Below, piece after piece: positions 7,671 to 10,566 of a stretch of DNA of 43,609 bases (position 1 is the stretch's first letter; each line of letters opens with the position of its first letter). The DNA lies in contig JBCCUP010000035.1 of assembly GCA_039196715.1 (NCBI GenBank), positions 1 to 43,609 on the forward strand. The letters are read 5' to 3'. Position numbers and translations under genes: made by a program. The notes under the pieces are model-generated. The model was not told where the DNA came from, made no database searches, and saw nothing but the letters and a program-made list of their open reading frames with translations. The stretch comes from Pseudomonadota bacterium. GTDB taxonomy: Bacteria; Pseudomonadota; Gammaproteobacteria; CALCKW01.

Positions 7671-7760
7671 GCCGGCACGGCGCAGTTGCGCAGGTTTCGG
7701 GTGGTGTGATGGCGGGTGAAGCCGGACAGTGCCGGGCGGCGTCGATCACGGAGTAGGGAC

Positions 7761-8666
7761 ATGCAAACGGCCAAGACCATGGACCGCGTGGACTGGGGTC
7801 TGTTGCTGCTGCTCGCGCTGCTCTGGGGCGGGGCGTACTTTTTTGTTGGTGTCGCGGTGCGTGAATTGCCGCCGCTGACCGTGGTGTTGCTGCGCGTCGC
7901 CATCGCCGCCTGCGTGATGCTACCGGTGGTCTGGTGGCTGGGGCAGCGCCTGCCCACCGCTGCGCGCGCCTGGTTGCCGTTTCTCGGCATGGGCCTGCTC
8001 AACAACGTGCTGCCGTTTTCGTTGATCTTCTACGGTCAGACCCACATCACGGTGGGCCTGTCTTCGGTGATCAACGCGCTGACCCCCCTGTTCACGGTGT
8101 TGGTCATGGCGGGGTTTCGGGAAGAGCGGCTGACCGCCTACCGGGTGTTGGGCGTGGTGCTCGGTGTGGTGGGGGTCGCCGTGTTGCGCGGTGCCGGATA
8201 CGACCTTGCGGACGCGCAGGTGCTCGGTATCGGACTGTGCATGGCAGCCGCCCTCAGCTACGGCTTTGCCGGCTTGTGGGGGCGGCGCTACCTCGCGACC
8301 GTGCCGCCGGTGACGTCTGCCACCTGCCAGTTGATCTGTTCGGCCGCGGTCATGGCCTGCGTGGTGGCCGTCGTGGACCGCCCCTGGGAACTCGGGATGC
8401 CGAGCGTGGCGGTGGTCTGGGCCATCCTCGCCCTCGCGGTGCTCGGCACGGCGCTCGCCTACATCGTGTTCTTCACACTGCTGGTACGCGCCGGTGCCAG
8501 CAATGTCATGTTGGTGACCCTGCTGATCCCGGTGATCGCCATTGCGCTGGGCGCCGTGTTTCTCGGCGAAGCCGTGCACGCGAGTGAAGTGGCCGGTGCA
8601 CTTGTGATCGGCGCCGGCCTCCTGTGTATCGACGGCCGGCTGGTGTCGTGGTGGCGGCGCCCGTGA
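7761..8666 (+). CDS. EamA (drug/metabolite transporter superfamily) exporter
   Basis: Inner-membrane protein of about 301 residues with ten hydrophobic helices arranged as two EamA repeats. The first repeat opens with LLLLLALLWGGAYFFVGVAV; the second ends around GAVFLGEAVHASEVAGALVIGAG, where the FLGE motif typical of DMT exporters is visible. DMT members usually export amino acids, nucleobases or other metabolites; the substrate is unknown. The ATG at 7761 is chosen because GGAG at 7750-7753 precedes it at normal distance and the first helix then follows at once; an upstream start at 7716 would add an arginine-rich extension. It ends 78 bases before the DUF1428 pseudogene. Confidence 0.85.
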   Translation: MQTAKTMDRVDWGLLLLLALLWGGAYFFVGVAVRELPPLTVVLLRVAIAACVMLPVVWWLGQRLPTAARAWLPFLGMGLLNNVLPFSLIFYGQTHITVGLSSVINALTPLFTVLVMAGFREERLTAYRVLGVVLGVVGVAVLRGAGYDLADAQVLGIGLCMAAALSYGFAGLWGRRYLATVPPVTSATCQLICSAAVMACVVAVVDRPWELGMPSVAVVWAILALAVLGTALAYIVFFTLLVRAGASNVMLVTLLIPVIAIALGAVFLGEAVHASEVAGALVIGAGLLCIDGRLVSWWRRP

Positions 8667-8744
8667 CGTGCCGGTGGGCTGGTAGTCCAGGCCACAGCCT
8701 GTCGCTGCACCGTGCAGCGCAAGTCAACCTCGGGGAGCGACACC

Positions 8745-9128
8745 ATGGCCTGTATCGACGGTTTCGTGCAGGCGGTGCCAACGGTCAACTAGACCGCGTA
8801 CATCCGACACGCTGCGGCTTCAGCCGAGGTGCATGAGGCGTACGGTGCCGTGAATCTGGTCGCGTGTTGTGGCGATGACGCGCAAGCCGGCGAACGCACA
8901 CCCTGTGTTGACGAGTTGCAACGCGAGCCTGACGAAACTGGGGTGTTCTCGTGGATCTGGTGGCTGTCCATGACCGCCCGGGACGTCGGCATGGCCGCCG
9001 CGGTGCAGGACGAGCGTCCGCCGCCCGGGCGCAACCCCATGCCCTTCGACGGCAACCAGATGATCCTTGCAGGCTTCGACGTGGTTGGGGGAGCTGAGGC
9101 GTGGCCCCCACAGTGTCCAGTGCGTTAG
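8745..9128 (+). pseudogene. DUF1428 (YbaA-like) gene interrupted by in-frame TAG
   Basis: Reading one frame from ATG at 8745 (GGGGAG at 8732-8737 is a good ribosome binding site) gives MACIDGFVQAVPTVN, a TAG stop at 8790-8792, then TAYIRHAA and more than 100 further codons without another stop to 9128. The ends match DUF1428 proteins such as E. coli YbaA: the opening YVDGFVVAVP pattern, the central VFSWI segment, and the near-C-terminal MPFDG.QMI..GF segment. The stop falls where the family usually has lysine, so one A-to-T change (AAG to TAG) would explain it. Some normally conserved positions are also changed, for example VECW has become VACC, which fits relaxed selection. A shorter product could still start at GTG 8829 but would lack the first strand. 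The stop overlaps the mgtE stop on the other strand. Confidence 0.8.
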
Positions 9129-10486
9129 CGCAGCAGCACCGCGGAGGCCAGACCGAGAAACGCCACGAATCCGACCACGTCGGTGACGGTCGTCAGCACC
9201 ACGCTGCCCGCCAGGGCCGGGTCGACCCCCATGCGGCGCAACAGCGTCGGCACCGCGACGCCGGCGGCGGTTGCGGCGGCCATGTTGATCACCAGCGCGG
9301 CGGCGATGATCAGGCCGAGCTCGGCGTCTCCGAACCAGAGGTAGGTGATCAGCGCGACGATCGTCGCCCAGAAGACGCCGTTGACAAAGCCCACGATCAC
9401 TTCCTTGTTCAGCAACCAGCGGACGTTGTGGGATGAGAGGTGGCCGAGTGCCTGGCCTCGAATGACCAGAGTCAGTGTCTGGCTGCCGGCGATCCCGCCC
9501 ATGCTCGCCACCACCGGGTTCAGGATGGCCAGTGCCACGATCTCCTCGAGTGCGACCTCGAAACGGCCGATCACCCACGCGGCGAGCAGGGCGGTCAACA
9601 GGTTGATGCCCAACCAGATGGCACGGCGGCGGCTGGCGTTCAGCACGGAGCCGAACAGGTCCTCTTCTGTGGACACGCCAGCCATGCCGTACATCTGCTG
9701 GTCTGCCTCCTCACGCATCGCGTCGACAACGTCGTCCACGGTGATCCGACCGAGCAGTTTGTTGTCGCGGTCGACCACGGCCGCCGACACCAGGTCGAGT
9801 TCCTCGAACTGGCGTATCACCTCGTGCTGGTCCGTTTCAACGGGTATGGCGTCGACGTCGGTGCGCATGAGCGCGGCCACGTCGAGCTCCGGGTCGTTGC
9901 AGAGCAGGCGTCGGATCGGCAACACACCGAGGTAGTGATCGAATCGATCGACGACGATCAGGCGGTCGGTGTAGCGTGGAATCTCGCCCTTCAGCCGCAG
10001 ATAGCGGATCACCACATCGAGCGACACGTCGGCCCGCACCGTGACCACGTCGAGGTCCATCAGGCCGCCGGCGCTGTCCTCGGGCCAGGACAGCACCGAC
10101 TCGAGGCGCTGGCGATTCTGCTTGTCCATGCCGGCCAGCACTTCGGGGATCGCGGCATCGGGCAAGCCCTGAACCAGGTCGGCGATGTCGTCGACTTCGA
10201 GGTGCCGGATGGCCTGGAGCAGGTCTTCCGAGTCGAGGTGCTTGACCAGCGAGTCGCGTGACTCCTCGTTCAGCTCGATCAGCACGTCGCCCGCGAGCGC
10301 GTCGTCCAGCAGTTGCCACACCACCAGGCGTTTGTTGCCGGGAATGCCCTCGAGGACGTTGGCGATTTCAGCCGGGTGCATGCCTTGCAGGGTCTTGCGG
10401 GCGGAATCAGCCTGCCCGCTCTGGAGTATCGCCTGCAGTGCGCCGATCTCGGGGCGGGTTTCGAGTTCTGGTGATGTCGATGGCAT
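9125..10486 (-). CDS. mgtE: Magnesium transporter MgtE
   Basis: Dimeric, Mg2+-gated magnesium channel of the inner membrane, about 453 residues, normal length. The helical N domain covers roughly residues 15-130 and includes MHPAEIANVLEGIPGNKR. A CBS pair follows (about 135-260, containing YTDRLIVVDRFDHYLGVL and LGRITVDDVVDAM). Then come five transmembrane helices from about 280, with the conserved NPVVASMGGIAGSQTLTL and the closing helices. In the family, N and CBS domains sense cytosolic Mg2+ and close the pore. The start is uncertain between ATG 10486 and GTG 10495; neither has a strong ribosome binding site. It follows ptsI by 80 bases on the same strand with no clear terminator between, so it is probably the last gene of the PTS operon. 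No Mg2+ riboswitch was recognised upstream. Confidence 0.92.
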   Translation of the reverse strand: MPSTSPELETRPEIGALQAILQSGQADSARKTLQGMHPAEIANVLEGIPGNKRLVVWQLLDDALAGDVLIELNEESRDSLVKHLDSEDLLQAIRHLEVDDIADLVQGLPDAAIPEVLAGMDKQNRQRLESVLSWPEDSAGGLMDLDVVTVRADVSLDVVIRYLRLKGEIPRYTDRLIVVDRFDHYLGVLPIRRLLCNDPELDVAALMRTDVDAIPVETDQHEVIRQFEELDLVSAAVVDRDNKLLGRITVDDVVDAMREEADQQMYGMAGVSTEEDLFGSVLNASRRRAIWLGINLLTALLAAWVIGRFEVALEEIVALAILNPVVASMGGIAGSQTLTLVIRGQALGHLSSHNVRWLLNKEVIVGFVNGVFWATIVALITYLWFGDAELGLIIAAALVINMAAATAAGVAVPTLLRRMGVDPALAGSVVLTTVTDVVGFVAFLGLASAVLLR

Positions 10487-10566
10487 GTCGGGCACTCGAG
10501 AAGAGGTCGGTCTGCGTGGTGATCGAGGGCAGGTGAGCTCGTGCTACCGGGCACCGTTTACGTCAA

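Follow-up and report, generated by a model that had tools for sequence, protein, structure and literature searches.

Proteins of the DUF1428 family have a dimeric alpha-beta barrel fold. Among the described members is YbaA of Escherichia coli (PF07237, PDB 2okq), whose solved structure is matched by the intact DUF1428 protein of a congener of the genome studied here (genome G003; E = 8.1 × 10−36). An expression table in PMC4924334 lists ybaA among its genes, and among the literature matches listed for a link to 4.5S RNA or ffs there was nothing with YbaA. Bacterial pseudogenes that result from failed transfers or from abandoned accessory genes are treated in PMC522871.

Here we describe a DUF1428 frame in the window, by which we mean the whole stretch of 43,609 nucleotides that was analysed (contig JBCCUP010000035.1 of a Pseudomonadota bacterium, genome G000). 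As in E. coli YbaA, the frame matches the family profile almost from end to end (positions 3–102 of 102); unlike YbaA, it has a stop at codon 16, has lost conserved residues and carries 10 extra codons. It resembles the failed or abandoned accessory genes of PMC522871 in being disabled and patchily distributed, with empty sites in sister species, and it does not differ in principle from the pseudogenes treated there, outside transfer being only one option for the window copy. We consider it very probable that this is an ordinary decayed pseudogene, specific to its lineage: situated between eamA and mgtE, this DUF1428 gene would have lost its use and be decaying by point mutation.

A DUF1428 frame split by one stop codon

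The PF07237 profile matches positions 8,754–9,053 of the window with 87.7 bits (E = 2.3 × 10−24; curated cut-off of 27), and one TAG lies inside the match (Table 1). A profile search of the draft assembly found this to be the sole DUF1428 match of the genome. The part 3′ of the TAG scores 68.5 bits by itself (E = 6.4 × 10−19), and the likeness to DUF1428 is therefore not due to chance. NCBIfam gave no match for the window frame or for the protein of congener G003.

Table 1 Features of the DUF1428 locus and its neighbours (positions in the window)
Feature	Position	Strand	Basis
EamA-type transporter, intact, upstream	7716..8666	+	Pfam PF00892
Shine–Dalgarno-like GGGGAG	8732..8737	+	7 nt 5′ of ATG; read off the sequence
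Decayed DUF1428 (PF07237) frame, from the ATG to the last TAG	8745..9128	+	Translation and PF07237 profile match
Premature in-frame TAG, codon 16	8790..8792	+	Sequence and translation
Remaining open frame from GTG 8829 (99 aa, without the first 28 residues), showing no sign of use	8829..9128	+	ORF list and alignment
Overrun of 10 codons past the usual 117-codon family length, then TAG 9126–9128	9096..9128	+	Translation compared with lengths of intact members
MgtE magnesium transporter, intact, convergent	9125..10495	−	Pfam PF01769, PF03448, PF00571

A preliminary description of this DNA had proposed a single DUF1428 frame interrupted by one in-frame TAG, with a ribosome binding site and without a frameshift. 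The translation and the profile match across the stop bear out the first point, the Shine–Dalgarno-like motif the second, and an alignment to intact members, with zero net gap across the 117-codon family body, the third. The column of the stop was also correctly described as one that usually holds lysine (of 55 relatives, 35 have lysine there, 15 arginine, 3 leucine, and one each isoleucine and valine). The claim that no other gene of the window is broken stands for the proteins that were scanned: three Pfam scans of 20 window proteins (7 of 8 proteins besides the pseudogene frame, 2 of 8, and 10 of 10) showed no second disabled family.

Loss of conserved residues

We aligned the window frame with 31 sequences that lack internal stops, leaving out a disabled copy from genome G045. 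At the columns conserved in at least 80% of the sequences, the window agrees at 33 of 46 and departs at 13. When each relative was left out in turn and scored against the others, 26 of the 31 kept 40–46 of 46–48 conserved columns, and two kept 37 of 48. In three divergent but intact relatives, the proportion of conserved columns retained is lower than in the window (L010, 28 of 49; L011, 29 of 49; L050, 33 of 48), which counts against reading the altered columns as decay.

An enlarged set of 65 sequences, reduced by five that were long or divergent and by four that were identical, gave 56 sequences including the window. Within this set, 26 of the 116 comparable residues of the window occur in none of the 55 other sequences; this is the largest number of such private residues in any of the 56 rows, the median of the others being 3 and the next highest values 22 and 17. 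More than half of them (14 of 26) crowd into residues 30–58, just past GTG 8829. The columns of R105 and G109 are invariant in all 55 relatives and altered in the window, which, with these two included, departs at 4 of the 16 columns that differ in at most one of the 55. The end of the frame is likewise shifted from its usual place, beyond the 117 codons of the usual DUF1428 body. The frame thus scores above the curated cut-off of the DUF1428 profile, carries a disabling lesion relative to intact homologues in the TAG at codon 16, and has signs of relaxed constraint beyond that stop in its private residues and lost conserved columns. Because it departs at near-invariant columns, we class it as a pseudogene of the DUF1428 family and not as a working member.

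The preliminary description had suggested an alignment to DUF1428 relatives and had taken changes at other conserved positions as a sign of decay rather than of a base-call error; the alignment confirms both the stop and the loss of conserved columns, and together with the overrun supports this view. If the TAG instead resulted from an assembly or sequencing error in a working, fast-diverging DUF1428 gene, there would be only a single stop and no frameshift, as observed; the assembly has draft status, with 169 contigs, and the codon models described below are compatible with constraint along a long branch. However, the private residues, the two altered columns that are invariant in relatives and the overrun of 10 codons would then have to be explained in some other way. 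This makes a lone base-call error unlikely, and we give this explanation very little weight.

Reading of the stop codon

TAG terminates 3 of the 27 large open reading frames of the window. As it serves them as an ordinary stop, we rejected a reassignment of TAG or its general read-through. Translation of the DUF1428 frame would accordingly be expected to end after 15 residues, and a DUF1428 protein would not be made.

A more specific form of expression would be read-through of this one TAG, or a restart at GTG 8829, yielding a diverged or shortened DUF1428 protein that is made and used, possibly in a new role. The downstream frame is open to position 9,128 and retains its profile score, and a translated, strongly diverged protein would explain the single stop, the absent frameshift and codon rates that give no sign of relaxed selection. 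Against this stand the ordinary use of TAG in the window, the fold around the stop, which is unremarkable (z = −1.25), and, for a restart, the position of GTG 8829 immediately before one of the most altered stretches of the frame. We regard such a protein as highly improbable, slightly more so than an error in the assembly. Searches of the locus for promoter-like or terminator-like sites found none, and Rfam gave no match in positions 8,500–9,300 at E values up to 0.1.

Branch length, codon rates and simulated decay

In a phylogeny of the 56 sequences (LG+G4), the window is the longest tip, with 1.45 changes per site compared with 0.77 for the next; in a mixture model of 36 of these sequences, its tip measures 2.43. 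A home-made codon model (GY94, 13 of the 56 sequences) gave the window branch log-likelihoods of −3445.80 with omega equal to the background, −3445.72 with omega free (0.041) and −3449.85 with omega fixed at 1, so that neutrality of the whole branch is 4.0 units worse than the background rate, all at saturated synonymous sites. With a late neutral part of the branch, the best fit lay near 0.10–0.15 substitutions per base and gained 1.9 units, again under saturation. Of five intact control tips, L013 and L032 gained as much, L004 gained about 1.2, and L009 and L061 gained nothing. The comparison of dN/dS that the preliminary description had recommended is thus affected both by saturation and by equal gains in two of five intact controls, and we set the codon-rate models aside as evidence for decay. 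They tell only that neutrality did not extend over the whole of the long window branch; a long period of constraint with recent decay at its end would agree with this, and so would a complete absence of decay.

The lack of a signal of relaxed selection on the whole branch counts against decay, as does the presence of one stop only, with no frameshift in the body. On the number of stops, we simulated neutral decay by placing 45 random mutations in each of two intact genes (400 runs each; indels were outside the model). About 24% of residues were changed, close to the excess loss of the window at conserved columns, and there were 1.3–1.4 stops on average, with at most one stop in 59–63% of runs. 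A single stop is therefore what decay to the extent seen in the window predicts. The absence of an indel in the body argues mildly against long neutral decay.

Empty sites and remnants in sister species

The transporter genes on either side of the decayed frame remain intact, and both are found in sister species: the EamA neighbour is 72% identical in G001 and G003, and the MgtE neighbour is 86% identical in G001 and 84% in G003. Counted off the junction sequences, the distance between the eamA and mgtE stops is 458 bp in the window, 13 bp in G003 (on two contigs) and 43 bp in G001. The site of the window gene is empty in these two sister species. In G002, mgtE (69% identity) lies beside another gene, and the stretch of G002 that was read holds no DUF1428. 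The two junction copies of G003 (L026 on contig C178 and L028 on contig C127) differ slightly, perhaps because of strain variation in the assembly. In the window, the TAG at which the decayed frame ends (9126–9128) overlaps the mgtE stop codon (9125–9127, minus strand). A search for direct repeats at the insertion edges yielded only a 7-base match (at 8,732 and 9,088), which is likely to be due to chance.

The profile search finds DUF1428 in two of the four genomes of the genus (G000 and G003), G001 being only 79% complete. In G003, an intact DUF1428 gene is flanked by genes for ectoine synthase and for a 2OG-Fe(II) oxygenase. G000 lacks a DUF1428 gene at this junction, where the stops are 14 bp apart, whereas G001 retains there a short C-terminal piece of DUF1428, a remnant overlooked by the profile search. 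The gene is thus absent from the eamA–mgtE site in sisters, intact elsewhere in one and a remnant in another, which makes it sporadic and dispensable in the genus; the junctions that lack it, together with the remnant, indicate that its loss is tolerated. The window DUF1428 is probably such a dispensable gene in the course of being lost. The case is of little wider importance: it is a further example of a minor accessory gene that appears and disappears between closely related species, one of which keeps the family intact, while a second has only a remnant and a third a dead copy at another position.

Origin of the window copy

Either relocation or transfer from an outside source would have brought the gene to its place between eamA and mgtE. 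We judge the chances to be even that the window copy represents a separate acquisition and not a relocation of the intact gene seen in G003. The reciprocal empty sites favour separate acquisition, the junction that holds the gene in G003 having 14 bp between stops in G000, as does the sporadic occurrence of the family, which the profile search found in 12 of 94 relatives and, across the class, in 34 of 369 genomes. The nearest row to the window in the tree of 56 sequences is from a Rhodopila metagenome-assembled genome, albeit with a bootstrap of 55, and the mixture model of 36 sequences again places the two side by side with low support. However, a clade of the window and G003 copies is not rejected by the AU test (p-AU = 0.463), and loss of an ancestral copy from the eamA–mgtE site in both G001 and G003 could also have produced the present distribution. 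Given the low support and the outcome of the AU test, we rejected the tree as proof of transfer.

Homologues of DUF1428 occur in 61 of 72,556 plasmid records, every one at less than 60% identity. The disabled copy that was left out of the first alignment (L012, G045:C6:5129–5353) belongs to an unrelated genome of the class and has one TGA and three TAA codons within the match. In G001 (L058, contig C15, about 1141–1580), the remnant gives way to a spacer containing two almost identical repeats, each about 40 bases long, which may be REP-like; a search of the window for this repeat did not find it.
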